64,000 nt of DNA from Pseudomonas eucalypticola (GTDB taxonomy: Bacteria; Pseudomonadota; Gammaproteobacteria; Pseudomonadales; Pseudomonadaceae): contig NZ_CP056030.1 of the NCBI RefSeq assembly GCF_013374995.1, forward strand, positions 4,868,501 through 4,932,500, written 5' to 3'. The first letter of the stretch is position 1. Each line of letters begins with the position of its first letter. Position numbers and translations under genes: made by a program. A model generated the notes under the pieces. It had not been told where the DNA came from, searched no databases, and was given only the letters and a program-made list of their open reading frames with translations. Below are positions 7,555 through 28,338 of this stretch, one piece after another.

Positions 7555-7607
7555 TGAAATGATGGCCATTTGTCATCAAATGGTCATGCGACTGTCGTGA
7601 AATACGA

Positions 7608-7641
7608 GGCCGGGCACTGGTACAAGTGCCCGGCCTTTTTT
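7608..7641 (+). terminator. Rho-independent terminator after prc
   Basis: 11-bp perfect stem GGCCGGGCACT/AGTGCCCGGCC (7608-7618, 7625-7635), 6-base loop, then six T (7636-7641). Confidence 0.95.
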
Positions 7642-7711
7642 ATGACACTGTGTTCCATCGCCCTCCGCCGTTCCCAGGGTCGGCTTGAGTACACCCGAGG
7701 TTGCGATCTCC

Positions 7712-9929: not shown

Positions 9930-10288
9930 TCTTCCGGGTAGGAAAATTCGAACACCCGCACCACTTCCGAGGCGTGCCACGACGCCGCGGCGACCCCGTC
10001 GGACGGACCGGAAAAACGCCCCAGGCGCTCGACGCACTCGAAGAAACCGGTTCGCGGCAGGCGGCTGGCGCCTTGGCTGATCACCAGGGAGCTACGCAAG
10101 GGCTGTTCGGCGCGGGCATCGATGACGGCCAGGTACTCAAGGGCCGCGGTCAGGGTTTGCATGGCCGGGGTGGGCAATTGCAGGCGTTCGAGCAGGGCGC
10201 GGTAGGTCAGCAGGTGGCGTTGGCGACGGGCAATGTCCAGCTCGTTCAGCAGGCCATCCCACTGCTGACGGCTGATGCGCACGCTCAC
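9917..10288 (-). CDS. Unrecognised protein paired with an XRE-type regulator
   Basis: 123 residues from GTG 10288. The start overlaps the stop codon of the regulator gene upstream (GTGA, 4 bases), and GGAGAGG lies just before it, so the two are translationally coupled. I do not recognise the family. The stretch L-T-Y-R-A-L-L-E-R-L followed by P-T-P-A-M-Q-T-L-T-A-A-L and a basic segment looks like a small winged-helix or helical DNA-binding fold, but this is a visual impression only. No signal peptide or membrane helix is seen. Coupling to a helix-turn-helix protein invites comparison with toxin-antitoxin or co-regulator pairs; nothing decisive supports either. Confidence 0.7.
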   Translation of the reverse strand: MSVRISRQQWDGLLNELDIARRQRHLLTYRALLERLQLPTPAMQTLTAALEYLAVIDARAEQPLRSSLVISQGASRLPRTGFFECVERLGRFSGPSDGVAAASWHASEVVRVFEFSYPEECIS

Positions 10289-10626
10289 GACGCCTCTCCC
10301 CAGCCGGGAACCCCCAGCTCCCACGCCAGGCTTCGTCGGATGGCCGCATCGGGCTCGCGCTCACCGGCCTCGATCATGGCCAGGTAGGAAGGGCTGATCC
10401 CCACGGTTCGCGCCAGCTTGTCCCGTGCCAGACCTTTGGCCTCGCGCAGTTCTGCCAGGCGCGACAGGGGCGGCAAGGCCTCACTGGCCGGCACCGGTGC
10501 CTGCACCGCAGCAACAGACGGCTGGGCGGCAGGTTGCCCTGCGGCAGCCAGCAATGCCTGGTATTGCTCCCACGGCAGCACGGCATATTCCGGCTTGCCA
10601 TCGCGACTGATGACCTGAACACCCAT
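10285..10626 (-). CDS. XRE-family helix-turn-helix regulator with antitoxin-like N-terminus
   Basis: 113 residues from ATG 10626 (AGGGGG upstream at good spacing; an ATG at 10650 would add 8 residues without a better ribosome-binding site). Residues about 58-105 form an XRE-type helix-turn-helix (A-R-D-K-L-A-R-T-V-G-I-S-P-S-Y-L-A-M-I-E-A-G-E-R split by the turn). The first 30 residues (G-V-Q-V-I-S-R-D-G-K-P-E-Y-A-V-L-P-W-E-Q-Y) resemble the short strand-strand-helix start of Phd/YefM antitoxins. A Pro/Ala-rich linker joins them. It is the first gene of a three-gene minus-strand unit with coupled or overlapping starts, and probably regulates that unit. Confidence 0.8.
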   Translation of the reverse strand: MGVQVISRDGKPEYAVLPWEQYQALLAAAGQPAAQPSVAAVQAPVPASEALPPLSRLAELREAKGLARDKLARTVGISPSYLAMIEAGEREPDAAIRRSLAWELGVPGWGEAS

Positions 10627-10730
10627 TACAACCCCCTGTAGGATCACCATATGTAATCTGTAGGCATAATCCTTATGCCGAATATAGTAACAGTAGGCGG
10701 GCCGGAACGGGATTTCCTATTTCAACTTGC

Positions 10731-11198
10731 TTACAAACCGGGCTTTTCGCCGCTGTTGTGTTCAAGTTGCAGGGCTTGGGCGCTGGCGGGCAGACGTTCC
10801 ACCTTGCGCAGATTCTCCGGCCGCAGGCGCTCGCGCCAGGCCTTGAAGGCATTGAGCTCGTTTTCCAGGCTGCGCACCACCCAGGCCAGCACCGCAATGT
10901 CATCGAGAAACCCGATGCCGGGAATCCAGTCCGGGATAGCGTCGATGGGGCTGACGAAGTACATCAGGCCTGCCACGATTATGACCAGGGCGCGCGGGTT
11001 GATCTGCCGGTATTCCCCGCGCCAGTACGCTACGCACAAGTCCTGCAGCAATTTGGCATGGGTCTTCAACTGGCTGAAACGACCGGCCTGGCCTTTGCTC
11101 TTCCGCACCACGGCGAAGATCAGCGCAGGCAGCCGGCCGCGACTGAGCACACGCTCGGCCAGGGGCAGGAAACGAGTAAAATTCCAGGGTGCTTTCAT
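10731..11198 (-). CDS. YkvA-family (DUF1232) membrane protein
   Basis: 155 residues; ATG 11198 has GGAGGG five bases upstream. The DUF1232 signature F-V-S-P-I-D-A-I-P-D-W-I-P sits at about residues 82-94, in the hydrophobic pair of helices characteristic of the family. The rest is basic and helical. The family is widespread and membrane-associated but its biochemical role is unknown. It lies alone between the XRE operon and an intergenic stretch carrying DnaA boxes. Confidence 0.85.
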   Translation of the reverse strand: MKAPWNFTRFLPLAERVLSRGRLPALIFAVVRKSKGQAGRFSQLKTHAKLLQDLCVAYWRGEYRQINPRALVIIVAGLMYFVSPIDAIPDWIPGIGFLDDIAVLAWVVRSLENELNAFKAWRERLRPENLRKVERLPASAQALQLEHNSGEKPGL

Positions 11199-11224
11199 TA
11201 ACCCTCCGCAGGGACAGGACCATG

Positions 11225-11253
11225 AGGTTATCCACAGTATTTGTGGATAACCT
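11225..11253. promoter_or_regulatory. Inverted pair of perfect DnaA boxes
   Basis: TTATCCACA (11228-11236) and its exact complement TGTGGATAA (11242-11250) face each other across GTATT; the symmetry extends to 12-bp arms (11225-11236 and 11242-11253). Both match the consensus DnaA box exactly. They sit 27 bases upstream of the DUF1232 start, in a 306-base intergenic stretch with no other gene, terminated by the fklB terminator. No AT-rich unwinding element or further boxes are seen, so this is not an obvious oriC. Confidence 0.75.
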
Positions 11254-11457
11254 TGTGAACAGCATTCGTTTTAATGGCTGAAAGCCACGCTGTGCAAGGG
11301 TCGAGGTTGGATCGGGCGTTTTTTACACACTTTGACACCGCCCAGGCCAGTGCGGCGTGAACGTTTGCGCAGCCCGAGTGGGGCCTTGGTATTAAGACTC
11401 CCTGGCAGCCCGACAGTTTCACCCAAGGGGCGGCCGCCGTGGCCGATCATGGGGGCG

Positions 11458-11485
11458 AAAAAAAACGCCCCGCAGAGCGGGGCGC
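11458..11485 (-). terminator. Rho-independent terminator of the FKBP gene
   Basis: Minus-strand stem from arms 11466-11473 and 11477-11484 (CGCCCCGC/GCGGGGCG) with a 3-base loop, followed on the minus strand by eight T (complement of 11458-11465). Confidence 0.93.
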
Positions 11486-11504
11486 TTTTCCACAGGGCTG
11501 TGAA

Positions 11505-12278
11505 TTACTTCGAGGCAGCCTTGTCAGCCTTGTCGGCTGCTTCAGCCTTGTCGGCGTCAGCAGCGGCTGGCTCCTGGTCGGCCTTGGCCGGATCCTTGAT
11601 GGCCAGCAGCTCCAGGTCGAACACCAGCACCGAGTTGGCCGGGATTTTCGGGCTTGGGCTCTGCGCGCCGTAGGCCAGGTCAGCCGGGATGAACAGCTTG
11701 ACCTTCTCACCAACGTGCATCAGTTGCAGGCCTTCGACCCAACCAGGGATCACGCCGCTGACCGGCAGGTCGATCGGGCTGCCGCGCTCGATGGAGCTGT
11801 CGAAGACGGTGCCGTCAGTCAGCTTGCCTTCGTAGTGAACAGTCACGACATCAGTCGGCTTCGGCTGCGGGCCGTCGGCCTTCTTGATGATCTGGTACTG
11901 CAGGCCGGAAGCGGTGGTGACCACGCCTTCCTTCTTGCCGTTCTCTTCCAGGAATTTCTTGCCCGAAGCTTCGGCTTCGGCGTTCATCTTGGTCATGCGC
12001 TCTTCGGCACGCTTCTGCAGCGCGGCAAAGGCTTCGACCAGTTCATCGTCCTTGAGCTTCTGAGGTTTCTTGCCGACAGCATCTTCGATGCCTTGGGCGA
12101 CGGCCTTGGAGTCCAGATCATCCATGCCTTCCTGAGCCAGGCTCTTGCCCATGTTCAGGCCGATACCGTAGGAAGCTTTCTGCGCCGGGGTTTTCAGTTC
12201 CACGCTGGAATGATTGTCGCAACCTGCGAGTACCAGAGTGACCAAGGCAACCGCCGCCGCCAACCGATGCTGTTTCAT
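11505..12278 (-). CDS. fklB: FKBP-type peptidyl-prolyl isomerase, lipoprotein
   Basis: 257 residues from ATG 12278, which has AAGGAA upstream. The N-terminus is a lipoprotein signal with lipobox L-A-G-C. An FkpA/Mip-like dimerisation region (about 25-120, starting T-P-A-Q-K-A-S-Y-G-I-G) precedes the FKBP domain (about 130-230; V-H-Y-E-G, D-G-T-V-F-D-S-S, V-I-P-G-W-V-E-G, Y-G). The tail is Ala/Lys/Asp-rich. It is expected to be membrane-anchored in the periplasm and to help fold proteins across proline bonds. The symbol follows common Pseudomonas usage; FkpA/Mip-like would be an equally fair name. Confidence 0.9.
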   Translation of the reverse strand: MKQHRLAAAVALVTLVLAGCDNHSSVELKTPAQKASYGIGLNMGKSLAQEGMDDLDSKAVAQGIEDAVGKKPQKLKDDELVEAFAALQKRAEERMTKMNAEAEASGKKFLEENGKKEGVVTTASGLQYQIIKKADGPQPKPTDVVTVHYEGKLTDGTVFDSSIERGSPIDLPVSGVIPGWVEGLQLMHVGEKVKLFIPADLAYGAQSPSPKIPANSVLVFDLELLAIKDPAKADQEPAAADADKAEAADKADKAASK

Positions 12279-12531: not shown

Positions 12532-13455
12532 TCAGCCTTCACGGTAACTGGCCGCCACCTCGCGCACGACGTCGCACAACCACTGGGCTGGCAACGGCAG
12601 CGCCAGGGATGCATTGCTGCAGATACCCACCGAGCCGCCGGGCTCGCGCACCCCCAGGTCGAGTTCGAACAAAGCCTGCTCTCGGATATCCAGCAATACG
12701 GCGTCACGGGGCGCTACCCAGATAGCATCGCTGCTGAGCACGTAGCGGCGGCTCAGGGTGGGCGACAAGGTTTCCAGGCGCTGGAGCGCCGGCTCGATAG
12801 CGCACTGCACGAACAGGCTGTCGGCATGCTTGCGAATAGTGGTGCCGGCCAGGGGCAGTACCAACGGATACCGGCTGACGCTGGCGCGGTCTGTCGGCAC
12901 CTGGCCCAGCAGCGGGTGGCCCGGGCGCACCACCAGGGTCATGGCCTCACTGTACAGGTGCTCGAACATCAGCCCCTGGATCTGCGGGCTGTCGGTCATG
13001 CGCCCGATCACCACGTCCAGTTCACCCACGTGCAATTGCGCCAGCAAATGGGCGCCGGGGCCAGTGGCGACGCTGACCACCAGCGCCGCGTGGCGTTCGT
13101 TCAGGCGGCAGAGCACCTCGGGCATCAACAGGCTTTCGACGGTGGACAACACCCCCACCCTGACCTGGGGCGGCTCATGTTCCTCGCTGCGCAGGGAACT
13201 GACCCCATCGCGCAGGGCCTGCACGCACGGTGCAGCGTATCGCATGAAGCGCACGCCGGCGGGGGTCAGTTCCACGCCGCTCTTGTCGCGGTCGAAGAGG
13301 CGGGTCTGCAACAAGTCCTCCAGTTCCTTGAGGGTCTTGGAGATGGCGGGCTGGCTGATGGCGACCGCATCGGCGGCTTTGGCGAAGCTGCCTTGGCGGG
13401 CAATTTCGAGAAAGCACAGCAAGTGGCGGAATTTGATACGAGTGTCGAGATTCAT
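12532..13455 (-). CDS. LysR-type regulator, PcaQ-like
   Basis: 307 residues with a clear LysR winged helix at the N-terminus (about 10-65; F-L-E-I-A-R-Q-G-S-F-A-K-A-A-D then S-Q-P-A-I-S-K) and a periplasmic-binding-protein-like effector domain (about 95-300). The opening D-T-R-I-K-F-R-H-L resembles the PcaQ/GbpR subgroup, which in other bacteria controls aromatic or sugar-acid genes. No pca gene is nearby. The gene is divergent from the dihaem cytochrome gene across 179 bases, so it is the natural candidate regulator of that cytochrome-catalase pair. Effector unknown. Confidence 0.88.
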   Translation of the reverse strand: MNLDTRIKFRHLLCFLEIARQGSFAKAADAVAISQPAISKTLKELEDLLQTRLFDRDKSGVELTPAGVRFMRYAAPCVQALRDGVSSLRSEEHEPPQVRVGVLSTVESLLMPEVLCRLNERHAALVVSVATGPGAHLLAQLHVGELDVVIGRMTDSPQIQGLMFEHLYSEAMTLVVRPGHPLLGQVPTDRASVSRYPLVLPLAGTTIRKHADSLFVQCAIEPALQRLETLSPTLSRRYVLSSDAIWVAPRDAVLLDIREQALFELDLGVREPGGSVGICSNASLALPLPAQWLCDVVREVAASYREG

Positions 13456-13634
13456 GTCCTGATGTTACGTAGGTGGGCGTCGCCTTGCCAGCAACCTGTG
13501 CAGGTCATCCGAATGCGTAGGAATGTTCGCTCAAGCTTTGTCGAAAAAACTACAAAAAGTACGGAAATAGCCACTTGCCACTGTATATATAATCAGGCAT
13601 AACACGCAGTCTATTTCCAACATGGACGTTCACC

Positions 13635-15440
13635 GTGCGCCTGATTCATCGCAGCCTGCTGGTGCTGCTCGCTCTCGTCGTCACCGCCATGGCGGTGGTG
13701 CTCTACTACACCGCCCGGCCCAACCTGCCACGCTACGAGCCGGTGCAGAATTTGCGCTACCTGGACCAGTGGAGCGCTGCCGACCGCGAACTGTACTACT
13801 TCACGCCCCAGGGCACCCAGGTCAAGGGCCTGCATTACGACTGGTTCACCCAGCTGGAACTGCCCTTCTCCGAGGACCGGTTCGCCGCGCCTCCGTACAT
13901 GGCCCGCTTCGGCTTCCTGACCGAGCCCAACCAGCAGGCCAGCGCCGCCAACCCAGGCAACCTGCCGGTGGGTTTCGCTCGCCACCGCAATGAGGGGGAC
14001 CCGGCCGAGTACCTGGACATCACCTGCGCCGCGTGCCACACCGGCGAGCTGCGCTTCAACGGCCAGGCCGTACGCATCGACGGCGGCACCGCGCAGCACG
14101 TGCTGCCCTCCAGCGTGCCCACCCTGCGCGGTGGCAGCTTTGGCCAGGCACTGGTGTCGAGCCTGGCGGCCACCTACTACCTGCCCTGGAAGTGGAGCCG
14201 CTTCGCGCACCGCGTCCTGGGTGACCACTACGACCGCGACAAGGACACCCTGCGCAAGCAATTCAAGGCGACGCTCGACAGGTTTGCCCACACCGCCTGG
14301 AATGACTGGCACCGCGGCCTGTACCCCACGCAGGAAGGCCCCGGGCGCACCGATGCGTTCGGGCGCATCGCCAACGCTACCTTCGGCGACGCCCTCTCGC
14401 CCGCCAATTACCGGGTGGCCAACGCGCCGGTGGACTACCCGCAGCTGTGGGACATCTGGACATTCGACTGGGTACAGTGGACCGGTTCGGCCCAACAGCC
14501 CATGGCCCGCAATGTCGGGGAATCGCTGGGCGTGGGTACCACGCTGCAATTCTTCGACGACCATGGCCAGCCGCTGACCGGTGACGCCCGCTACCCTTCC
14601 AGCGTGCGCATCCGCGACCTGTACCGTATCGAAGAGACGCTCCAGCACCTCAAGCCGCCTGCCTGGCCGGAAGATATCCTGGGCAAGGTCGACCTGGCCA
14701 GGGCAGCCACCGGCCGCGCCCTGTTCAATGCCAATTGCGCGATGTGCCACGTGCCCCCGGTGAAACAGGAAGGCGGCCGTCCCGTGCGCACCATGGTGCT
14801 CAAACCGGTCGACGAGATCGGCACTGACCCCACCGTGGCCGCGAATATCGCCACGCACCGCTATGACGTCAGCAGCCTGAAGTGGAACCCCGATGAACTG
14901 GGCAAACTGGGTGTGACGGTCCAACCCGACCCCGGCAAGCTGGACCTCACCCAGGTGTCCGTGGCCCAGGGCCTGGCCTATGTCACCGCCTTCGTCGAAG
15001 ACCACGCCTACCGCGCGGCCGGCATCGAAGGCGCCGAGCGCGCCCGCTACGACGGCTTCGGCCTGGGTATCGGCGTGCTGGAAGTCAACGCCTACAAGGC
15101 GCGCCCGCTGGATGGCGTGTGGGCCACGCCGCCGTTCCTGCACAACGGCTCGGTCCCCAGCGTCTATCTGTTGCTGTCACCCCAGGACGAACGCCCGCGC
15201 ACTTTCTACCGCGGCAGCCTGGAATACGACCCGCAGAACCTGGGCTACCGCACCGAGCGTTTCGACGGTGCCTTCCTGTATGACACCGCCATCACTGGCA
15301 ACCACAACAGCGGCCATGAATTCCGTGACGGCCCCCGTGGCCGAGGGGTGATCGGTCGCTACCTGGCGCCACAGGATCGCCGTGACCTCATCGAATACCT
15401 GAAAGTGCTGGGCGGCCCGCTAGAGGAGCAATTGCCATGA
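13635..15440 (+). CDS. RoxA-like membrane-anchored dihaem cytochrome c
   Basis: 601 residues from GTG 13635. An N-terminal signal anchor (about 5-26) is followed by a periplasmic protein with two haem-binding sites, C-A-A-C-H (131-135) and C-A-M-C-H (368-372). Near 494-506 the sequence G-V-W-A-T-P-P-F-L-H-N-G-S matches the conserved motif of the MauG/dihaem peroxidase superfamily, and the size and layout fit the RoxA/RoxB rubber-oxygenase branch rather than the ~330-residue CcpA peroxidases. Its substrate here is unknown; an organic (lipid or terpenoid) oxygenation and a peroxidase role are both possible. The downstream catalase-fold gene overlaps by 4 bases (ATGA), so the two are co-translated. 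A TATAAT-like -10 lies at 13588-13593. Confidence 0.85.
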   Translation: MRLIHRSLLVLLALVVTAMAVVLYYTARPNLPRYEPVQNLRYLDQWSAADRELYYFTPQGTQVKGLHYDWFTQLELPFSEDRFAAPPYMARFGFLTEPNQQASAANPGNLPVGFARHRNEGDPAEYLDITCAACHTGELRFNGQAVRIDGGTAQHVLPSSVPTLRGGSFGQALVSSLAATYYLPWKWSRFAHRVLGDHYDRDKDTLRKQFKATLDRFAHTAWNDWHRGLYPTQEGPGRTDAFGRIANATFGDALSPANYRVANAPVDYPQLWDIWTFDWVQWTGSAQQPMARNVGESLGVGTTLQFFDDHGQPLTGDARYPSSVRIRDLYRIEETLQHLKPPAWPEDILGKVDLARAATGRALFNANCAMCHVPPVKQEGGRPVRTMVLKPVDEIGTDPTVAANIATHRYDVSSLKWNPDELGKLGVTVQPDPGKLDLTQVSVAQGLAYVTAFVEDHAYRAAGIEGAERARYDGFGLGIGVLEVNAYKARPLDGVWATPPFLHNGSVPSVYLLLSPQDERPRTFYRGSLEYDPQNLGYRTERFDGAFLYDTAITGNHNSGHEFRDGPRGRGVIGRYLAPQDRRDLIEYLKVLGGPLEEQLP

Positions 15441-16606: not shown

Positions 16607-17347
16607 CGGTCATGCTTCACGCTTGATGGCGCGGTGGGTCTGGGAAACCGCGGCGTCCGGTCCCATAAGGGAAGCCTCGCCATCGCATCCAACCCTGTGG
16701 GACCGGGCGCCAGCTCGGGAAGGGGCTGCGCGGTGGGGCTGGGGGACCGCAGCGCCTGCTTCCCGAGCTGCGCCCGGTCCCACAGAGTAAACCCCACCAC
16801 CGCGGCCAACCCTGTGGGACCGGGCGCCAGCTCGGGAAGGGCCTGCGCGGTGGGGCTGGGGGACCGCAGCGCCTGCTTCCCGAGCTGCGCCCGGTCCCAC
16901 AGAGTAAACCCCACCACCGCGGCCAACCCTATGGGACCGGGCGCCAGCTCGGGAGGGGGCTGCGCGGTGGGGCTGGGGGACCGCAGCGCCTGCTTCCCGA
17001 GCTGCGCCCGGTCCCACAGAGTAAACCCCACCACCGCGGCCAACCTGTGGGACCGGGCGCCAGCTCGGGAAGGGGCTGCGCGGTGGGGCTGGGGGACCAC
17101 AGCGCCTGCTTCCCGCGCTGCGCCCGGTCCCACAGGGGAAGCCTCGCCATCGCATCCAACCCTGTAAGGAGCTGCGCGGTGGGGCCGGGAGACCGGGGCG
17201 CTGTGACATCCAGTAATAACCCGCTTTTGCATTCCCCCGCGAAAAGCGCCACCCTCCCCGCCGCTGATCGGCAGCCTGCGTTCTGGCGGAACCAGGCCTG
17301 CCGCGCGCCTATCCTTATTCAACCACCTTCGCTCAAGGCCAATCGTC
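16607..17347. repeat. Intergenic block of ~117-bp tandem repeats with internal hairpins
   Basis: Four near-identical units begin at about 16696, 16813, 16930 and 17046 (spacing 117, 117, 116), flanked by degenerate part-copies (16625-16690 and 17127-17210). Each unit contains an arm TGGGACCGGGCGCCAGCTCG and a downstream arm of nearly complementary sequence (CGAGCTGCGCCCGGTCCCA), so each can fold into a long hairpin of REP/BIME type; the spacer carries G-C-rich GCGGTGGGGCTGGGGGACC. Open frames crossing the block on both strands are periodic repeats of Ala/Pro/Arg-rich sequence and are judged non-coding. It separates the catalase-fold gene from opgC. Confidence 0.9.
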
Positions 17348-18487: not shown

Positions 18488-18502
18488 GCAATCAGGCGTT
18501 GC
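18477..18502. terminator. Hairpin spanning both stop codons of opgC and nadA
   Basis: GCAACGCCT (18477-18485) pairs perfectly with AGGCGTTGC (18494-18502). The stem covers the last codons of both convergent genes and has no T-run; it could block or slow transcription in both directions. Confidence 0.45.
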
Positions 18503-19550
18503 CAGCCGCCTTCATGCGTGCGGCCTGGGTGAAATCCAGCATGCGCTTGAGGGGGCGTACCGCGTTGGGGATCAGCGCAGGGTCGACGGAAATCTCGTTA
18601 CGGCCTTCGCGCAGTGCCGTGAGGGTGCGCTCCAGAGTATTCATGGCCATCCAGGGGCAGTGGGCGCAACTGCGGCACGCCGCGCCATTGCCGGCGGTAG
18701 GCGCCTCGACGAAGATTTTGTCCGGGCACAACTGCTGCATCTTGTAGAAGATGCCCCGGTCGGTGGCCACGATGAACGTCTTGTTCGGCAAGCGTTGGGC
18801 CGCGGCAATCAACTGGCTGGTGGAACCCACGGCGTCGGCCAGCTCGATGACCGACTCCGGCGACTCGGGGTGCACCAGAATGGCAGCGTCCGGGTACAGC
18901 GCCTTCATGTCTTCCAGCTGACGCCATTTGAACTCTTCGTGAACGATGCAAGCGCCGTCCCACAGCAGCATGTCGGCACCGGTCTGCTTCTGGATGTAAC
19001 GGCCCAGGTGTTTGTCCGGCCCCCAGATGATGGTCTCGCCGTTGTCCATCAGGCTTTCGACGATTTCCAGTGCGCAACTGGACGTCACCACCCAGTCGGC
19101 CCGGGCCTTGACCGCCGCCGAGGTATTGGCGTAAACCACCACCGTGCGTTCGGGGTGCTGGTCGCAGAATGCCGAGAACGCTTCTACTGGGCAGCCCAGG
19201 TCCAGCGAGCAGGTGGCTTCCAGGGTCGGCATCAGGATGCGCTTTTCGGGGGTGAGGATCTTGGCGGTCTCGCCCATGAACCGCACGCCCGCCACCACCA
19301 CGGTCTGGGCGGGGTGGTTCTTGCCGAAACGGGCCATTTCCAGCGAGTCGGACACGCAACCACCCGTTTCCTCGGCCAAGGCCTGGATCACCGGGTCGCA
19401 ATAGAAATGCGCCACCAGTACCGCATCCTGAGCCTTGAGCTCGGCGGCAATGGCGGCACGGTAGTCGGCTTCCTGCTCGACGGTCAGCGGTTTGGGCTGT
19501 TTGGCGTCGAGGTGGGCCTGGACCAGAAGGCGTTCGGAAATCTGCGTCAT
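18492..19550 (-). CDS. nadA: Quinolinate synthase
   Basis: 352 residues. The enzyme condenses iminoaspartate with dihydroxyacetone phosphate to make quinolinate for NAD synthesis in the cytoplasm. The [4Fe-4S] ligands are at Cys114, Cys201 and Cys298, matching the spacing of E. coli Cys113/200/297, and the C-terminal C-x2-C-x2-C motif is intact (292, 295, 298). The V-A-H-F-Y and H-P-E-S segments of the active site are present. Start ATG 19550; convergent with opgC. Confidence 0.97.
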
Positions 19551-20041: not shown

Positions 20042-21067
20042 ATGGCCCACGTCCCGAGTTTTCTGTCGGTGGTGTTTGTCGTTCGCAACCATGCCGATTT
20101 TCTTGAAGCCCTGCTGCTGGACGCTACTGAAGTGGTCAGCGCCATGGTTCGCGACTACGAGTTGATCGTGGTCGACAATGCCTCCACCGATGCCAGCATT
20201 GCCGTGCTCAAGCACCTGAGCGCCGAAACGGGCATCGCCAACCTGCAGGTCTACGCGCTGACCAAGGAAGTGGACATCGACACGGCCTCCTGGGCCGGCC
20301 TGGAAAACGCCCTGGGCGACCATGTGGCGGTGATCGACCCCATGACCGATGACATCCGCTACCTGCCCAAGCTACTGGACCAAGCCCGCCAGGGCGCCGA
20401 TGTGGTCTTCGTATGCAACGAACAGCGGCCGCGCCAAGGGCCACTCTATCGCCTGGCATTCCGGGTGTTCCACTGGTGTTACCACCGCTTCAACGGCATC
20501 AACCTGGCCAGGGAGGCGCCCCCCTACCGGCTGATGTCGCGGGAAGTCATCAATTTCATCCTGCAACACCCGAAGCCCGTCATCGGCTACCGCCATTTGC
20601 CGGCGACTGGCGGTTTCGCCCGCGCCAACCTGCGCTACAGCCAGCCACCCCGGCCCCAGCCGCGCAAGCGCCTGCGGGACAACATCGACCGCGGCGTAGG
20701 CCTGCTGCTGTCCACTACCCGCGGGCCCATGCGCTTGGTTACGGCGCTATCGCTATTCGGTGCAGTCATGAACTTGATGTACTGCATTTACGTGGTTGCC
20801 ATCGGCGTTTTCAAGACCGACGTAGCGCCAGGCTGGATCAGCCTGTCGCTGCAGCAATCGGGGATGTTTTTCCTGATTTCGCTGGTACTGATGGTGCTGG
20901 GCGAATACCTGATGAACATGGCCAGCGCCGGCCAGCAGGGCCCGGGATATCACGTGGCCCAGGAGTTCACCAGCGCCCGCGTGACCCGCCGTGAGCGCCT
21001 CAACATCGAGGAAGCCGCGGCGCCCCCCCTTGAGACGGGTACCGTCGTGACCGGGCGGTTCTCCTGA
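20042..21067 (+). CDS. Glycosyltransferase family 2 with C-terminal membrane helices
   Basis: 341 residues. A GT-A fold at the N-terminus (V-V-F-V-V-R-N-H, then I-V-V-D-N-A-S-T-D near 50 and V-I-D-P-M-T-D-D near 100) is followed by two strong membrane helices (about 235-260 and 275-295). This is the layout of ArnC/GtrB/DPM1-like enzymes, which transfer a sugar from a nucleotide donor to undecaprenyl phosphate. The metal-binding D-x-D position reads D-P-M-T-D-D, so the exact site is uncertain. First gene of a seven-gene tightly packed unit; the stop overlaps the next start (TGATG). Substrate unknown. Confidence 0.82.
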   Translation: MAHVPSFLSVVFVVRNHADFLEALLLDATEVVSAMVRDYELIVVDNASTDASIAVLKHLSAETGIANLQVYALTKEVDIDTASWAGLENALGDHVAVIDPMTDDIRYLPKLLDQARQGADVVFVCNEQRPRQGPLYRLAFRVFHWCYHRFNGINLAREAPPYRLMSREVINFILQHPKPVIGYRHLPATGGFARANLRYSQPPRPQPRKRLRDNIDRGVGLLLSTTRGPMRLVTALSLFGAVMNLMYCIYVVAIGVFKTDVAPGWISLSLQQSGMFFLISLVLMVLGEYLMNMASAGQQGPGYHVAQEFTSARVTRRERLNIEEAAAPPLETGTVVTGRFS

Positions 21068-22188
21068 TGAGTACTCACGCGCCACCCTACGACGCAGTCA
21101 TCATCGGCGGCGGTTTCTACGGCGCCGCCATTGCGGTGTACCTGGCCGCCCAGCGCGGGTTCAGGCACACACTGCTGGTAGAACGCGAGCCAGCGCTGAT
21201 GCTGCGCGCGTCCTATAACAACCAGGCGCGGGTGCACAATGGCTACCACTACCCGCGCAGCTACACCACGGCGTACCGCAGCCGGGTGAACCTGCCGCGC
21301 TTTGTGCGTGACTGGCCGCTGGCGGTCAGGCAGGACTTCACCAAGCTGTATGCCATCGCGCGGCACAACTCGAAACTGACCGCCCGCCAATTCGAGCGGT
21401 TCTGCCGCGACATCGGTGCGCCGGTGCAGCAAGCGCCGGCGAGCCTGCGCGAGCTGTTCCAGGCGCGCCTGATCGAAGACGTGTTCGCCGTGCAGGAGTA
21501 TGCCTTCGACAGTACCCGCCTGGCGGAGTGGGCCTTGCGCGAGCTGGACCGTTTCGCGGTGCAGGTGCATTACCGCACCCGCGCCCTGGCTGTCGATAAA
21601 ACCCCGGATGGGCTGCGGGTGCAGCTGGAAAACGAGCGCGGCGATAAGACCCACGTGGACAGCCGCTACGTGTTCAATTGCAGCTACAGCGGCACCAACC
21701 AGCTAGCGGGTGACTTCCCCGGGGTGAGCACGCCGCTGAAGCAGGAAATCACCGAAATGGCGCTGATGGCCATGCCTGCCCCCTTGGCAGGCCTGGGCAT
21801 CACGGTGATGGACGGGCCGTTTTTTTCCCTCATGCCCTTCCCTGCCCGGGGCCTGCATACCTTGTCCCATGTGCGCTTCACCCCACACCTGAGCTGGCAG
21901 GACAAGCCAGGGCTGGACCCGTACCGCAAATTGCGCGACTACGCGCGCGTCAGCCGGGTGGACCGCATGGTGCGCGATGTGGCCCGCTACATCCCGGCGG
22001 TAGCCGATGCCCGGCACGTGGATTCGCTGTACGAAGTCAAAACCGTGCTGCAGCGCAATGAAGCCGACGATGGTCGGCCGATTCTCTTCGAACGCCACGC
22101 CACGTTGCCCGGCTGCTTTTCGGTGCTGGGCGGCAAGATCGACAACCTCTACGACGTGCTGGAGAAACTCGATGATGAAGCACTTTGA
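21067..22188 (+). CDS. FAD-dependent oxidoreductase (DAO fold) in the glycan cluster
   Basis: 373 residues. The FAD-binding G-G-G-F-Y-G-A motif is at 15-21, followed by a glutamate-ended strand (L-L-V-E-R-E), as in the D-amino-acid-oxidase superfamily. An unusual conserved-looking segment N-Q-A-R-V-H-N-G-Y-H-Y-P-R-S follows near 56-69. The C-terminal G-G-K-I-D-N-L-Y-D closes the FAD site. Such enzymes oxidise amine or hydroxyl groups. Placement among glycosyltransferases and an epimerase suggests that it acts on a sugar or lipid-linked sugar, but that is inference. The next gene starts inside its 3' end (17-base overlap). Confidence 0.82.
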   Translation: MSTHAPPYDAVIIGGGFYGAAIAVYLAAQRGFRHTLLVEREPALMLRASYNNQARVHNGYHYPRSYTTAYRSRVNLPRFVRDWPLAVRQDFTKLYAIARHNSKLTARQFERFCRDIGAPVQQAPASLRELFQARLIEDVFAVQEYAFDSTRLAEWALRELDRFAVQVHYRTRALAVDKTPDGLRVQLENERGDKTHVDSRYVFNCSYSGTNQLAGDFPGVSTPLKQEITEMALMAMPAPLAGLGITVMDGPFFSLMPFPARGLHTLSHVRFTPHLSWQDKPGLDPYRKLRDYARVSRVDRMVRDVARYIPAVADARHVDSLYEVKTVLQRNEADDGRPILFERHATLPGCFSVLGGKIDNLYDVLEKLDDEAL

Positions 22189-23656
22189 ACTGTCGAAGCT
22201 CTGCACCCTGGTAGCGCTGCTGGTACTGGCCAGCATTTTCGTGACCCTGTCGGCACGTTCGGTGTGGATGGACGAGGCGATGCTGCTCAAGAACATCATC
22301 GCCATCAGCAACCCGGCCGACTTCGCGGCGCCCCTGCCCTTCTATGACCAGGCCGAGCCGGTACTGGCGTCGGTGTTCTTCAAGCTGGTCATGACGGTGT
22401 TCCATTACGATATCCGGCCCCTGCGCCTGTCGGTGCTGGCGGTGTCATTGCTGCTGGCCATTCCCGTCGCCTTGCTGTTTCGCCCCTATCGCTGGGGCGT
22501 GTTCGTGTTCCTGCTGGCGGTGATCGGCAATTCGTTCTCCACAGCCTTCCACTTCACCGAACTCAAGTTCTACTTCCTGGAAATGAGCGGCAGCTTCATG
22601 GCTATTCTGGCCATCCGCGAAGCCGAAGACCGCGACGACATCTACTGGACGCTGCTGGTGGCCGCGCTCATCAGCCTGCTGGGCTTTTCCACGCTGATCA
22701 TCGCCGGCGGCTTGCTGGCGTATGCCTGCTGGTGGTTCGTGAGCCGCGACGACGGCAGCCAGCGCCTGTACAAGGTCGGCGGTTTCGTGGTCGCCGCTGC
22801 CTGCGTGGCGCTGTCGTATGTGTGCATGAAATACCTGACCACGTACCAGATCAGCAATTACAGCACCTACGCCAGCAGCGGCCCGGCGCAGGCGCTGGAA
22901 AGCGTGTTGCACGCGCTGCTGGGCGCCTATGGCAAGGTGCTGATGGCGGTGTCGGTCGTGTCGAGCCTGATGCTGCTGGTGTACCCGCCGCGCACCTTCA
23001 TCCATCGGGTCAACCAGTTTTTCTGCGTGCTGGTGGTGCTGGTACTGGTGGGCAAAGTCGCTGGCGTCTACCCCGCCACCTACCCGCGCCACGTGATCTG
23101 GATGGTGCCCCTGAGCCTGGTGATCGACACTTTCGCCATTCTCACCTTTACCCAGGGCATGAGCAAAAGTCTCAAGGTGCTGGGCTGGGCATTGCTGGCG
23201 TTGCTGGCGCTACAAGCCGCCAAGGCCGTGCACAACAACCTGGACGGCGACAACTTTCAGTACACCGACAACAACGCCCTTTACCAGTACATCTCGGCCA
23301 TGCCGCCGAGCGAGATTCTGGTACACCCCAACGCCCAGCCATCGCTGGAGTATTACCAACTGCTGGACCCGGGCCTTGCCCGCCAGCACTTTTTCACCCG
23401 CCTGGACGACACCACCCGGCGCCGCGACCCCAGTCAGGAAATGGCCACCATGGCCAACGACATCGACCAACTGCTCGCCCAGCGGCCCAGCGACTCGGTG
23501 TACTTCCTGACCTCGCACCTGGACCTGCAGCCAGGGGAAACCGGGGTGGGCAACCTGATGCAGGCCGCACTGGACAAATACCGTTGTGCCTACACCTCAG
23601 AACTGAGCGTGACGGATGCCGAATTGTTGCACCTCAATTGCCGAGGCCCCCTATGA
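22172..23656 (+). CDS. GT-C-like polytopic membrane glycosyltransferase
   Basis: 494 residues from ATG 22172 (GGAG 7 bases upstream). About ten membrane helices are visible. After the first helix comes S-V-W-M-D-E-A (about residues 30-36), the acidic first-loop motif expected of GT39/ArnT-type transferases that use polyprenyl-phosphate sugars on the periplasmic side. The C-terminal 120 residues form a soluble domain. With the GT2 (20042) and the small EamA-like protein (25286) it would complete a three-component glycosylation system. The acceptor is not evident. Stop overlaps the next start (ATGA). Confidence 0.75.
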   Translation: MMKHFELSKLCTLVALLVLASIFVTLSARSVWMDEAMLLKNIIAISNPADFAAPLPFYDQAEPVLASVFFKLVMTVFHYDIRPLRLSVLAVSLLLAIPVALLFRPYRWGVFVFLLAVIGNSFSTAFHFTELKFYFLEMSGSFMAILAIREAEDRDDIYWTLLVAALISLLGFSTLIIAGGLLAYACWWFVSRDDGSQRLYKVGGFVVAAACVALSYVCMKYLTTYQISNYSTYASSGPAQALESVLHALLGAYGKVLMAVSVVSSLMLLVYPPRTFIHRVNQFFCVLVVLVLVGKVAGVYPATYPRHVIWMVPLSLVIDTFAILTFTQGMSKSLKVLGWALLALLALQAAKAVHNNLDGDNFQYTDNNALYQYISAMPPSEILVHPNAQPSLEYYQLLDPGLARQHFFTRLDDTTRRRDPSQEMATMANDIDQLLAQRPSDSVYFLTSHLDLQPGETGVGNLMQAALDKYRCAYTSELSVTDAELLHLNCRGPL

Positions 23657-24456
23657 CCGCGACCCGCGATGCACTGATTGGCTACACCGGTTTCGTTGGC
23701 TCCACGCTACTTCGCCAGACTACCTTCGCCGCCCACTACCGCTCCACCACCATCGGCGAGATCGATCACCTGCCCTTCGACACCCTGGTGTGTGCCGGCG
23801 CCCCCGCGCAGAAGTGGCTCGCCAACCGCGAGCCGGAAGCCGACCTGCAGGCCATCGATTCACTGATCGAACACCTGCGCACCGTGCGCTGCAAAGTATT
23901 CGTGCTGATCAGCACGGTGGACGTCTTTTCCCACCCCATCGGGGTGGATGAATACACGACCGTGGACGAAACCGGCCTGCAGCCCTACGGCCTGCACCGT
24001 CGGCGCCTGGAAAAGTTCGTGGCCGAGCATTTTCCCTGCCACCTGATCGTGCGCCTGCCCGGCCTGGTCGGCCCTGGGCTGCGAAAAAACGTATTGTTCG
24101 ACCTGCTGCACGACAACAACCTGACCGCCGTCGACAGCCGCGGGGTGTTCCAGTTCTACCCCATGGTCAATCTCTGGTACGACATCCAGACCGCCTTGCA
24201 GGCTGGCCTGTCTCTGGTACACCTGTGCGCCGAGCCGCTCAGCGTCGCCCGCCTGGCCCGCCAGGGTTTTGGTCGGGAGCTGGAGAACCACCTGAGCGCC
24301 TCGCCCGCCCGCTATGACCTGCACAGCCGCTTCGCCAACCTGTACGGCGCCGCCGGCCGCTACCCTTACAGCGCGCGCGACACCCTGCTGGCGGTGCGCG
24401 CCTATGCCCAGTCTGAACCGCGGGGCATTGCCCTGCCTGTGGAGGTACACGCATGA
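23653..24456 (+). CDS. NAD(P)-binding epimerase/dehydratase-like protein
   Basis: 267 residues. The Rossmann start is G-Y-T-G-F-V-G-S near residues 9-16 (extended SDR pattern G-x-x-G-x-x-G). S-T-V-D-V-F occurs near 90 and a Y-x-x-x-R (Y-G-L-H-R) near 113-117, where active extended SDRs have Y-x-x-x-K; the catalytic Lys is therefore replaced by Arg. It may be a degenerate or atypical sugar epimerase/reductase. It overlaps both neighbours by 4 bases and is clearly part of the glycan operon. Confidence 0.78.
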   Translation: MTATRDALIGYTGFVGSTLLRQTTFAAHYRSTTIGEIDHLPFDTLVCAGAPAQKWLANREPEADLQAIDSLIEHLRTVRCKVFVLISTVDVFSHPIGVDEYTTVDETGLQPYGLHRRRLEKFVAEHFPCHLIVRLPGLVGPGLRKNVLFDLLHDNNLTAVDSRGVFQFYPMVNLWYDIQTALQAGLSLVHLCAEPLSVARLARQGFGRELENHLSASPARYDLHSRFANLYGAAGRYPYSARDTLLAVRAYAQSEPRGIALPVEVHA

Positions 24457-25289
24457 GGCTGGCCATTTCCAATATTGCCTGGGAGCGCGCCGAGGACATG
24501 GCCGTGAGCAAGTTGCTTCAGCAACTGCAAATCGACGCGATTGATGTCGCCCCCGGCAAATACTTTCCCAACCCCGCCCAGGCCTCCGAAGCACAGATCA
24601 GCCAGGTTCGGCGCTGGTGGCGTGCACGCGGTATCGAGATTTACGGCATGCAGGCACTGCTGTTCGGCACCCGTGGCCTGAACCTGTTCGCCGGCAGTGA
24701 CAGCCAGGCAGCCATGCTCGCCCACCTCGCCGCCGTGTGCCGTATCGCCGCCGGCCTGGGGGCCCGGCGCCTGGTGTTCGGCTCGCCGAAAAACCGTGAT
24801 CGGGCGGGCCTGGAACCTCAGCACAGCCTGGAAGTGGCGATGCGTTTTTTCCGCCGCCTGGGAGACATCGCCCATGACCACGGCGTGGTGATCTGCCTGG
24901 AGCCGAACCCCGCCTGCTACGGCGCCAACTTCATGCTCGACAGCCACGAAACCGCTCACATGGTGCGCCTGGTCGCCCACGACGCGATCCGCATGCAGCT
25001 GGACACGGGCGCCTTGACGCTCAATGCCGAGGACCCGGCCCGGGTGCTGCACGACCACGCCGACCTGATCGGCCATGTGCATGCCAGCGAGCCGCACCTG
25101 GTGCCCCTGGGCGAAGGCGGTACCGACCATGGACGGGTGCTGAGCGCCTTGCGCGGCTACCTGCCGGAACAGGTGGTGACCATCGAGATGCTCACGCCAC
25201 CTGACCAACCCACCCTCCCGGTGCTCGAACGTGCCTTGCAGGCCGCCACCCGCCATTACCGACACCATGACAGCGGAGTACGTGCATGA
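24453..25289 (+). CDS. Sugar isomerase/epimerase, xylose-isomerase-like TIM barrel
   Basis: 278 residues. The pattern of metal-binding residues of the AP-endonuclease-2 fold is visible: I-C-L-E-P-N-P near 147-153, L-D-T-G-A near 186-190, H-V-H-A-S-E-P near 207-213 and V-T-I-E-M near 242-246. Members isomerise or epimerise sugars and inositol derivatives. In this operon it probably makes or modifies the sugar that the glycosyltransferases use. Starts and ends overlap its neighbours by 4 bases. Confidence 0.82.
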   Translation: MRLAISNIAWERAEDMAVSKLLQQLQIDAIDVAPGKYFPNPAQASEAQISQVRRWWRARGIEIYGMQALLFGTRGLNLFAGSDSQAAMLAHLAAVCRIAAGLGARRLVFGSPKNRDRAGLEPQHSLEVAMRFFRRLGDIAHDHGVVICLEPNPACYGANFMLDSHETAHMVRLVAHDAIRMQLDTGALTLNAEDPARVLHDHADLIGHVHASEPHLVPLGEGGTDHGRVLSALRGYLPEQVVTIEMLTPPDQPTLPVLERALQAATRHYRHHDSGVRA

Positions 25290-25642
25290 AATGGGCAATC
25301 CTGATCCTGGGCATTCTGTCCAACGCGTCAGCCAGCGTGCTGGTGAAAATGGCGATGATGCCCCCGCGACGCTTCCCCTCGTTGGCCGAGCCCATGGCGG
25401 CATTGGCCAACTGGCCGTTCTGGCTGGGGCTGGCATTGTACGGCGGCGCTTTCCTGCTGTATGCCGCGGCGTTGGCCCGGTTGCCGCTCAACGTTGCCCA
25501 TCCGGTGCTGACCGCTGGGGCCGTGGCCACGGTCGCCCTGTCTTCGGTGCTGCTACTGCGTGAACCCTTTCACTGGACCACCGGTGCCGGGGTCTTTCTG
25601 GTTATTGCCGGCGTGGCCTTGATCACCGCCCGGGTCGCCTGA
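25286..25642 (+). CDS. Small EamA/ArnE-like membrane protein
   Basis: 118 residues with four membrane helices, the size of SMR and ArnE/ArnF proteins. G-I-L-S-N-A-S-A-S-V-L-V-K near 9-21 and the closing L-x-R-E-P-F-H-W-T pattern near 94-102 fit the EamA half-unit found in ArnE/ArnF, which flips undecaprenyl-phosphate-aminoarabinose. Its position with a GT2 and a GT-C-like gene suggests a flippase for a lipid-linked sugar. Drug export is a less likely alternative. Confidence 0.8.
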   Translation: MKWAILILGILSNASASVLVKMAMMPPRRFPSLAEPMAALANWPFWLGLALYGGAFLLYAAALARLPLNVAHPVLTAGAVATVALSSVLLLREPFHWTTGAGVFLVIAGVALITARVA

Positions 25643-25652
25643 GGTATTGCCC

Positions 25653-26471
25653 ATGACATCTGCCCAATTCGTGCCCGCCGGCCTGGCGGCACGCCAGGTT
25701 CCCAACTACGAGCTGCCCTTGTGGCTGGGCCGCCAGCGCAACTGGTGCGTAGTCATTCCGGTCATCAACGAGGGCGAACGCATCCGTCATCTGCTCGAGC
25801 GCATGGCGATCATGGCCCTGGACCATCTGGCCGATATCATCATCGTCGACGGTGGCAGCCAGGACGGCTCCCTCAATAGCGCGCTGTTGAGCAAAACCCG
25901 GGTACGCGGGTTGCTGGTCAAGACCGGCCCGGGCAAGCTCAGCGCCCAGTTGCGCTGCGCGTACGCCTTCGCCCTGGACCAGGGCTACGAAGGCGTGGTG
26001 ACCATCGACGGCAACGACAAGGATGATCCGCGGGCCATTCCCGACTTCATCCAGGCCCTGCGCCGCGGCGTCGATTTCGTTCAGGCGTCGCGGTTCATCG
26101 AAGGCGGCATAGCGGAAAACACCCCGCCTTCGCGCCACTTCGCCATCCGCTATATACACGCGCCCCTGCTGAGCTGGGCGTCGGGTTTTCGCTGGAGCGA
26201 CACCACCCAGGGGTACCGCGCCTATAGCCGGCGGCTATTGCTGGATCCTCAGGTGGCGATCTTCCGCGATGTGTTCATGACCTATGAGCTGCTGGCGTAC
26301 CTGTCGTACCGAGCGCCTCGGCTGGGGTACCGCTGCGTCGAGCTGCCCACCGTGCGGCGCTACCCCAAGGGTGAGGTGCCCACCAAGATCAGCAGCGTGC
26401 GCGGCAACCTGGCGGTGCTGGCCGTGCTGGCACGCGCTTGCCTCGGGCGCTATGACCCGCCCGCCACTTGA
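25653..26471 (+). CDS. Glycosyltransferase family 2, soluble
   Basis: 272 residues from ATG 25653 (GAGG 8 bases upstream; TTG 25647 rejected). N-terminal C-V-V-I-P-V-I-N-E-G-E-R, I-I-I-V-D-G-G-S-Q-D-G-S and V-T-I-D-G-N-D-K-D-D mark a GT-A fold of the dolichol-phosphate-mannose-synthase type. No membrane helix at the C-terminus. Last gene of the tight operon, ten bases after the EamA-like gene. Donor and acceptor unknown. Confidence 0.82.
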   Translation: MTSAQFVPAGLAARQVPNYELPLWLGRQRNWCVVIPVINEGERIRHLLERMAIMALDHLADIIIVDGGSQDGSLNSALLSKTRVRGLLVKTGPGKLSAQLRCAYAFALDQGYEGVVTIDGNDKDDPRAIPDFIQALRRGVDFVQASRFIEGGIAENTPPSRHFAIRYIHAPLLSWASGFRWSDTTQGYRAYSRRLLLDPQVAIFRDVFMTYELLAYLSYRAPRLGYRCVELPTVRRYPKGEVPTKISSVRGNLAVLAVLARACLGRYDPPAT

Positions 26472-26760
26472 GCATCATCCAGACGCTCTATCTTTCGTGT
26501 AGACATTGAAACTGTCATGATGAAAACCAAACAACTTCGTACGCAAAAATACTGAACTTTACCTACCCTGACATTACTACTGATACCCACTCTTCAAGTT
26601 ACTAATACATACATAAAAAACGTGCATCGAATGCCTGGACATGGCAGGCTTCCAGTCCCTGTTTATCCAGCGTTGAATGGCTACACGCCCCGCCGGCCCT
26701 GATTCCACACCGCCTGATATTCATCGCGCCGCCCTGTATTGGTATTTCGAAGGTAGTGCC
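26472..26760. other. AT-rich intergenic stretch
   Basis: 289 bases, of which about 26500-26630 is markedly richer in A/T than any nearby gene. It probably holds a promoter for the glycosyltransferase at 26761. A shift in composition of this kind at the edge of a cluster is common where horizontally acquired DNA has been inserted. Confidence 0.55.
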
Positions 26761-27648
26761 ATGTTTGATGTTGTTCCCGACGTACCGCTGGTCACGGTCA
26801 TCATTGCGTCTTATAACCATGCGCCTTACATCGAGGCCAGTATCAACAGTGTGCTTCGCCAGACTTACCCGCGTATTGAACTGCTGGTCATCGATGATGG
26901 TTCGTCCGACAACAGCGTGGCCCTGCTTTCGCAGCTTCAGGCCGCGCACGGTTTCGACTTGCGGGTTCAGGCCAACCAGGGCCTGTCCGCGACCCTCAAT
27001 GCTGCCATTGCCCGTGCCCGGGGCACGCTGATCGTTCCGTTTGGCTCCGACGACATCATGCTGCCCCATCGCATCGCCACCCAGGTCGAGTACCTCGAGG
27101 GCAAGCCTGAAGTGGGCGTGTGCTCGGCCAACATCGAGACGATCGACCATCAGGGCAATGTCATGGGCGCCCGGGAGCAGCGCAACCGGGACCTGCCGTT
27201 TCGACGCCTGGACTTCGACGACCTCTTCCTGGGCCGCAAGCCGGGCCCCGCGGCGGCCACCCTGATGTTCCGCCGCGAGGCGCTGGACAAGGTGGGCGGC
27301 TTCGACCCCGACATCCGCCTGGAGGACATCTACATCACCCTCTCGATCCTGCGGGCCGGCTATTGCATCGATGTATTGGGCGAGGTGCTGGCCCAATACC
27401 GGGACCACCCCACCAACACCTTCAAGAACGGTCGCTTCATGGTGGAAAACGTGCTGAAGACCTATGCCCGGTTCCGCGACCACCCCGAGTACGAAGCGGT
27501 GTGCATGCGGTTTCGCAACTCGATGTTCCTCAAGTACGCCAACCGCGACAAACCACTGGCCCGCACCACCTTGCGTGACATCCCCCTGCGCCACTGGAAT
27601 CGCAAGACCGTGCGGGGCTTGTGGCGTTTGCTGGCATCGCGACGTTAG
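26761..27648 (+). CDS. Glycosyltransferase family 2 (second transcription unit)
   Basis: 295 residues from ATG 26761, with GAAGG upstream. Classic GT-A features: V-T-V-I-I-A-S-Y-N-H near residue 12, L-V-I-D-D-G-S-S-D near 45, and the donor/metal site F-G-S-D-D-I-M near 95; a C-terminal catalytic-loop E-D near 187 (R-L-E-D-I-Y). It resembles enzymes of O-antigen and exopolysaccharide clusters. It is 289 bases from the preceding operon and may be independently expressed. Confidence 0.88.
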   Translation: MFDVVPDVPLVTVIIASYNHAPYIEASINSVLRQTYPRIELLVIDDGSSDNSVALLSQLQAAHGFDLRVQANQGLSATLNAAIARARGTLIVPFGSDDIMLPHRIATQVEYLEGKPEVGVCSANIETIDHQGNVMGAREQRNRDLPFRRLDFDDLFLGRKPGPAAATLMFRREALDKVGGFDPDIRLEDIYITLSILRAGYCIDVLGEVLAQYRDHPTNTFKNGRFMVENVLKTYARFRDHPEYEAVCMRFRNSMFLKYANRDKPLARTTLRDIPLRHWNRKTVRGLWRLLASRR

Positions 27649-28262: not shown

Positions 28263-28338
28263 TGGTGGGTCGTGTGGGACTCGAACCTACGACCAATTGG
28301 TTAAAAGCCAACTGCTCTACCAACTGAGCTAACGACCC
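28263..28338 (-). tRNA. tRNA-Lys (anticodon TTT)
   Basis: 76 bases including an encoded CCA. The acceptor stem GGGTCGT pairs with ACGACCC, the D arm reads AGCTCAGTTGGTAGAGC, the anticodon loop is CTTTTAA and the T arm carries GGTTCGAATCC. Its 3' end faces the glycan cluster. Confidence 0.97.

Follow-up and report, generated by a model that had tools for sequence, protein, structure and literature searches.

Among described systems, those closest to the gene cluster reported here are the Gtr systems, made up of GtrA, GtrB and a type-specific GT-C glycosyltransferase, and the Arn system for 4-amino-4-deoxy-L-arabinose (L-Ara4N), with ArnC, ArnE/F and ArnT. Proteins of the EamA/SMR and GtrA types are regarded as flippases of polyprenyl-phosphate sugars. 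YcjQRS-type glycoside conversion, which includes a 3-keto-glucoside 4-epimerase, is a catabolic pathway whose dehydrogenases belong to other families. Kelly et al. (2024; PMC11127046) describe three-component pentofuranose systems in which a short-chain dehydrogenase/reductase (SDR) epimerase or DprE1/E2 homologues are expected to act after lipid loading, and say that, to their knowledge, side-chain systems of O-polysaccharides had no further epimerases. Here we describe a gene cluster of Pseudomonas eucalypticola (host genome of 6.4 Mb), located at positions 20042 to 26471 of a 64,000-nucleotide stretch of contig NZ_CP056030.1 (4,868,501 to 4,932,500; the whole stretch is called the window), which is probably a Gtr/Arn-type system for periplasmic glycosylation through polyprenyl phosphate that includes a redox epimerisation module of its own. 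A first, sequence-only reading of this DNA had proposed a possible Arn/Gtr-like glycosylation system that brings its own enzymes for sugar modification and knew of no described pathway with the exact gene set; we likewise found no published description of it in the literature searched, judged by title and start of abstract. The cluster consists of seven close-packed genes:

20042..21067, + strand: GT2A, a GtrB/ArnC-like glycosyltransferase family 2 (GT2) domain (PF00535) with two C-terminal membrane helices; DxD motif lost
21067..22188, + strand: flavin adenine dinucleotide (FAD) oxidoreductase of the D-amino-acid oxidase (DAO) superfamily (PF01266, 3.2e-21); proposed sugar oxidase
22172..23656, + strand: GT-C membrane glycosyltransferase (fold by model), a variable, acceptor-side gene
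23653..24456, + strand: SDR-like protein with YxxxR replacing YxxxK; proposed keto-sugar reductase
24453..25289, + strand: TIM-barrel AP_endonuc_2 protein (PF01261, 1.4e-21); proposed keto-sugar epimerase
25286..25642, + strand: four-helix EamA/ArnE/ArnF-like protein; proposed flippase of the polyprenyl-phosphate sugar
25647..26471, + strand: GT2B, a DPM1/ArnC-like GT2 for which no membrane helix is predicted; proposed catalytic synthase of the polyprenyl-phosphate sugar

The genes lie where the sequence-only reading had placed them, and the domain calls hold (GT2, DAO, AP_endonuc_2, EamA and GT2). The overlaps of 1 to 17 bases that it gave for the whole span are present at five of the six junctions (GT2A/FAD, 1 nt; FAD/GT-C, 17; GT-C/SDR, SDR/TIM and TIM/EamA, 4 each), while the last is a gap, with the EamA stop at 25642 and the GT2B start at either TTG 25647 (4-nt gap) or ATG 25653 (10-nt gap). 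Helix counts come from simple hydropathy.

With the Gtr systems, the cassette shares a GtrB-like GT2, a putative small flippase and an exchangeable GT-C enzyme, GtrA even replacing EamA in several cassettes, but it differs by the FAD, SDR and TIM genes and by a second GT2, and its GtrB-like protein has no DxD motif. The features in common with Arn are an ArnC-like GT2, a weakly ArnE/F-like four-helix protein and a GT-C enzyme of the ArnT fold; the cassette differs in that ArnA, ArnB and ArnD are not matched in the set: Pfam and NCBIfam searches with the eight proteins encoded from 20042 to 27648 found none of them. A separate ArnC-like gene, adjoining an ArnB-like gene (named by eye), is located elsewhere in the genome. 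The proposed oxidise, TIM-barrel epimerise and reduce logic is that of YcjQRS-type conversion, and the TIM profile matches its 3-keto-D-glucoside 4-epimerase (6wn6) at 3.4e-5, but it scores better against ketose 3-epimerases. The pentofuranose three-component systems of PMC11127046 and DprE1-DprE2 have in common with the cassette, as proposed here, an epimerisation tied to a polyprenyl-phosphate sugar, followed by a flippase and a GT-C enzyme; by analogy, the cassette would work like this class but differ from it in the donor (derived there from phosphoribosyl pyrophosphate [PRPP] and giving pentofuranoses, whereas no PRPP-type synthase was seen here), in the DAO-type FAD oxidase and in the extra TIM epimerase.

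Six of the seven genes (GT2A, FAD, SDR, TIM, EamA and GT2B) form a conserved cassette. The FAD family is large, with 7907 matches among 7999 scored, some of them named glycine/D-amino-acid-oxidase-like, and the best 120 are 68 to 93% identical. Scanning genome contigs with an alignment of 14 FAD proteins gave 335 confirmed stretches, of which the best 80 were taken as the locus sample; from the record titles, we take their hosts to be mostly gamma- and beta-proteobacteria, plus one Candidatus Roseilinea. At the score limits applied, the core was complete in 62 of these 80 loci and in the same order in 61, the exception (L056) having the SDR-to-GT2B block first. Gene by gene, GT2A was present in 79, SDR in 72, TIM in 71, GT2B in 67 and EamA in 66, and spacing was at most 60 nt between GT2A and FAD (78/79 loci), SDR and TIM (71/71) and TIM and EamA (65/66). 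The 18 loci without a full core include five of a second type (type 2; L037, L046, L052, L055 and L058), those truncated by contig ends (L036, L060, L062, L083, L094 and probably L028), four without EamA alone (L049, L065, L077 and L099), one without EamA and GT2B (L059) and two with weak GT2B matches (L042 and L045). Side observations from this sample concern extra copies. On the contig of L021 (Pseudomonas sp. T1-3-2, the nearest relative of the window), a partial second SDR-TIM-EamA-GT2B copy adjoins the full cassette (L106:12963-15835), its SDR and GT2B appearing truncated, and on that of L086 (P. viridiflava) there is an extra GT2A gene (L105:2958-3920) whose match is reported to contain a stop; two multi-helix proteins come after it, and no FAD gene adjoins it.

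Co-occurrence was also found in whole genomes. In the genus (149 genomes), the same ten genomes gave FAD and GT2A matches (two of them type 2), SDR was found in eight and TIM in nine; as the 80-locus sample draws on some of the same genomes, this count is not independent of that of the loci. One genus genome (G107, L102) carries a TIM gene without FAD, beside a GTC-like open reading frame (ORF) adjoining queC and nadA (by eye), which is probably a remnant. Among 398 genomes of the phylum, FAD was detected in seven (limit 1e-35) and TIM in eight (limit 1e-25), six of them shared. Of the two genomes with TIM but no FAD match, one carries SDR-TIM-EamA-GT2B on a contig of 3.5 kb (L125), and in the other TIM stands by itself (L124). 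The genome with FAD but no TIM match (L132) was not counted as carrying a cassette, as its FAD match is weak and neither SDR nor TIM lies beside it. The recurrence of the six genes is far beyond chance, although related genomes are not independent, and the co-occurrence whose absence outside close relatives would have refuted the sequence-only reading extends well beyond them.

The GT-C gene is the variable seventh member, with differing partners across loci. For the window protein (22172..23656), a Pfam search gave no convincing match, and the family profile gave only chance matches against PDB sequences; the assignment was settled by fold comparison and not by the PDB profile search. The best matches of its structure model were ALG12, Pmt4 (PMT) and ArnT, the last as anticipated from the letters, so that by its model the protein has a GT-C fold, which does not imply function. 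Candidates elsewhere were chosen by length, at least five predicted helices (hydropathy) and nearness, and 78 ORFs qualified. Nineteen were excluded by eye because they resembled acyltransferases or transporters, were unlike in other ways, nearly duplicated another ORF or lay too far away, including those of L027, L031 and L043, and the other 59 were aligned with a shorter L060 ORF, the window protein and four GTC hits. The 65 sequences fall into 15 unlinked groups. The GT-C-labelled tree carries one label per two-candidate locus, with L021, L022 and L098 labelled after a close relative, and has several long branches.

The flippase gene is exchanged as well, EamA giving way to GtrA in other cassettes. 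The small window protein (25286..25642), read earlier as ArnE-like, matches TMEM234 (4e-7) and EamA (2.1e-6) as well as ArnF (5.1e-6); its EamA-like nature stands, but the ArnF and ArnE matches fall under the NCBI cut-offs. A putative small flippase is represented by an EamA match in the window and by GtrA elsewhere. In the type 2 loci, the genes after GT2A and FAD are a different GT2 (with a canonical DxD in L052, L055 and L058), an aldo/keto reductase and GtrA, which replace SDR, TIM, EamA and GT2B; single-sequence models of the type 2 reductase and GtrA gave no match above 40 bits in the other 75 loci. L046, L052 and L058 also share, at about 13230 to 13730, a conserved protein of ~165 amino acids with one predicted helix, the L058 copy without a Pfam match. 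Twelve plasmid records had a match, and six were inspected. Sphingomonas, Cereibacter, Roseobacter and Sagittula plasmids carry SDR, TIM, a weakly GT2A-like protein, FAD, GtrA and GT2B, an Azospirillum plasmid SDR, TIM, GT2B, FAD and GT2A, and Psychrobacter plasmid pA22P4 (L116, 10,782 bp) the cassette with an SMR protein. Besides replication and mobilisation genes, the cassette is the cargo of pA22P4.

Which of the two GT2 proteins loads the carrier was judged from their motifs. The GT2A profile aligns nearly full length with GtrB sll0501 (7e-25) and ArnC (5.4e-17), and the sequence-only reading had counted GT2A as the ArnC/GtrB-like part of the system. However, at the site where the ArnC-like protein encoded elsewhere in this genome reads D-A-D-L-Q, GT2A has D-P-x-x-D-D, and it lacks the G-D-S-K-Y stretch that corresponds in that protein to the G-x-SKY motif of ArnC. 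D103 is invariant (79/79) and D99 is kept in 73/79, while none of 11 further GT2A sequences showed DxD at the site; among these, L114, L115 and L118 have no aspartate in the site stretch past the first residue and L117 has a shifted D-D, though the alignments here are weak. Because DxD and G-x-SKY are missing, GT2A is probably a non-catalytic pseudo-glycosyltransferase, a membrane partner. GT2B, whose profile matches dolichol-phosphate mannose synthase (1.6e-12) and ArnC (4.7e-9) and which keeps D68, D73 and D121-G-N123 in 68/68 sequences and in 12/12 further ones, appears the likelier polyprenyl-phosphate sugar synthase. The Psychrobacter plasmid encodes GT2A and GT2B as one fused frame, and a protein 94% identical to this fusion comes from at least six contigs among the matches listed. 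GT2B is followed by at least five helices in the same protein in 25 of the 120 matches listed, and Cereibacter GT2B is fused to a multi-helix part with a GTC match.

The FAD, SDR and TIM proteins make up the putative sugar-modifying trio. The FAD protein is strongly conserved; a PDB search with the single sequence gave no match, and the best match of its profile was weak, to L-alpha-glycerophosphate oxidase 4x9m (2.9e-5), with weak similarity to sarcosine and glycine oxidases as well. Glycerophosphate oxidase attacks the alcohol beside a phosphoester carbon, a position that may correspond to C2 in a sugar-1-phosphate. As a DAO (PF01266), the cassette oxidase is not of the DprE1 family, which we take to be a different FAD family. 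The SDR gives a sub-threshold PF01370 match and weak Epimerase/RmlD matches. GxxGxxG, S87, Y112 and R116 are invariant in 72/72 sequences (window and 71 loci), and GxxGxxG, Y112 and R116 in 15/15 further ones. Because the lysine of YxxxK, noted earlier as lacking, is replaced by an invariant arginine, the protein is classed from its sequence as a divergent SDR-like protein. The TIM profile has its top match (5.9e-10) in a protein named as xylose-isomerase-domain, followed by D-psicose 3-epimerase 7e9w (7e-10) and D-tagatose 3-epimerases, while 6wn6 is also the best single-sequence match (1.2e-4); from entry names, we take the best-scoring relatives to act on ketoses and keto-glycosides. AP_endonuc_2 sugar epimerases and isomerases have a metal site of conserved Glu, Asp, His and Glu, and the corresponding predicted residues E150, D184, H210 and E245 are invariant in 72/72 TIM proteins and 16/16 further sequences.

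The trio also occurs outside polyprenyl cassettes. Viral contig L111 (IMGVR_UViG_3300028591_000070, 386 kb) carries at 6126-11767 FAD, SDR, TIM and then a T4-type beta-glucosyltransferase (phrog_7922, 4.5e-39; PF09198, 5.7e-15), with overlaps of 1, 17 and 4 nt (first start codons), downstream from thymidylate-synthase- and thymidylate-kinase-like genes and with no polyprenyl machinery among the neighbours scanned. This gene group, found on a single contig, resembles a DNA hypermodification set and may represent a new DNA sugar modification, a resemblance that makes glucose plausible as the starting sugar. A second viral contig, L112 (IMGVR_UViG_3300011113_000736, 70 kb), has at 5698-9035 a GT2 gene, a fused SDR-TIM and the FAD protein. 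Among viral contigs, the only closer relatives of the two FAD proteins were themselves, and among phage records the L111 FAD gave one partial record and the L111 TIM no match. In genome G508 (L126:6994-9718), a divergent FAD-SDR-TIM lies beside sugar ABC importer-like genes (by eye), with no GT2 match in the stretch, and is possibly in catabolic use. The nearest parallels to L111 among the publications seen are the arabinosyl-DNA of RB69 (PMC6024577) and arabinosylating phages in which genes for an isomerase and an epimerase are predicted (PMC13390438).

The gene set and its conservation, the conserved catalytic residues, the GT-C fold of the model and the exchange of flippase and GT-C genes are observed, while the chemical steps and their order, the lipid-linked substrate, the acceptor and the sugar with its stereochemistry are inferred. 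As a pseudo-glycosyltransferase, GT2A would keep GT2B at the membrane, and GT2B would load a hexose, at first guess glucose, onto undecaprenyl phosphate. The FAD enzyme would oxidise a secondary hydroxyl of the hexose, the TIM-barrel protein would invert the neighbouring carbon and the SDR would reduce the ketone, most likely all on the lipid-linked sugar, as DprE1/DprE2 do on decaprenyl-phosphoryl ribose. The product would be flipped by EamA (GtrA elsewhere) and moved by the GT-C enzyme to an envelope glycan or other acceptor, which would vary between strains. The sequence-only reading had the trio make or alter the sugar before its linkage to the carrier; the sugar-modifying set stands, but the trio may act after attachment. 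We lean slightly towards a lipid-linked sugar as its substrate and find a nucleotide sugar clearly less probable. A wider proposal, which we hold tentatively and with more doubt than conviction, is that a portable trio remodels hexosyl groups after their attachment to a carrier, which would be undecaprenyl phosphate in proteobacteria and, in a large virus that is presumably a phage, glucosylated DNA. Bacterial GT2A would present the lipid-linked sugar, and a single core could in this way supply a rare hexose to numerous unrelated GT-C enzymes.

Several observations weigh against the polyprenyl-phosphate system proposed. No EamA match above 90 bits was found at five loci uncut by contig ends (L049, L059, L065, L077 and L099), the Azospirillum plasmid has no annotated flippase, and 10 of the 62 full-core loci have no listed GT-C, several of them (L027, L031 and L043 among others) having excluded multi-helix ORFs. 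The TIM gene of L124 is solitary, GT2A matches in the four alphaproteobacterial plasmids are weak (23 to 35 bits), and GT2B has D-G-N rather than DxD. The two viral contigs and L126, moreover, carry the trio without polyprenyl machinery, and given these three the trio may act on a nucleotide sugar or free glycosides. The trio could accordingly make a rare UDP-hexose in the cytoplasm from a nucleotide sugar such as UDP-glucose, which GT2B (or GT2A) would load onto undecaprenyl phosphate, the rest remaining unchanged. Many SDR epimerases and reductases use nucleotide sugars, which fits, and the bacterial cassettes would be covered together with L111, where the trio overlaps the beta-glucosyltransferase gene. 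We still regard this route as unlikely, as the gene that constantly adjoins FAD encodes a membrane protein, GT2A, the top TIM relatives are ketose and keto-glycoside enzymes rather than nucleotide-sugar ones, and the L126 trio near a possible sugar importer fits poorly.

GT2A might, alternatively, have an unusual metal site and still be catalytic; GT2B would then add another sugar, and a lipid-linked disaccharide would be made and transferred. The near full-length alignment with GtrB and ArnC and the conservation of D103 and D99 would agree with a working synthase, but the second DxD aspartate and G-x-SKY are missing, the further GT2A sequences have no DxD, three alphaproteobacterial ones have no aspartate beyond the first residue of the site stretch, and L116 and P0146 have the two GT2 proteins fused, all of which makes this improbable. 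DAO enzymes often use amines and hydroxy acids, and the PF01266 family and the weak profile similarities of the FAD protein would allow the trio to build a non-sugar group (e.g., an amino or hydroxy acid) decorating the sugar. With sugar epimerases as TIM relatives, a DNA-glucosyltransferase-like gene adjoining the L111 trio and no recurring extra enzyme gene seen inside the six-gene order (neighbours were partly scanned for families), we consider this very unlikely.

The cluster is flanked by nadA (named by eye; 18492-19550, minus strand) and a tRNA-Lys gene (28263-28338). The loose GT2 gene that follows it (26677-27648) begins 205 bases past the preceding gene; it lies within the span delimited by the sequence-only reading but was rejected as a member, as among the 80 loci a close relative exists in L021 alone (600 bits; others at most 101 bits). 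A gene elsewhere in the genome (L109) has, by eye, an end stretch resembling this gene. A compositional island was rejected, the GC content of the cluster (~0.61-0.66 in windows of 1000) matching its surroundings, and so was a phage origin, phage records giving one partial 36% FAD match at 1e-20. A tandem array (16689-17165; period of 117 bp, 4.1 copies, 95% matches) lies between a catalase-like gene and an OpgC gene.

If true, the system proposed here would extend carrier-linked sugar epimerisation beyond pentofuranoses and provide bacteria with a widespread route to rare surface hexoses that needs no new nucleotide sugars. A large FAD protein family, now partly named glycine/D-amino-acid-oxidase-like, would gain a function, and viral DNA would be predicted to bear a sugar of a new kind.

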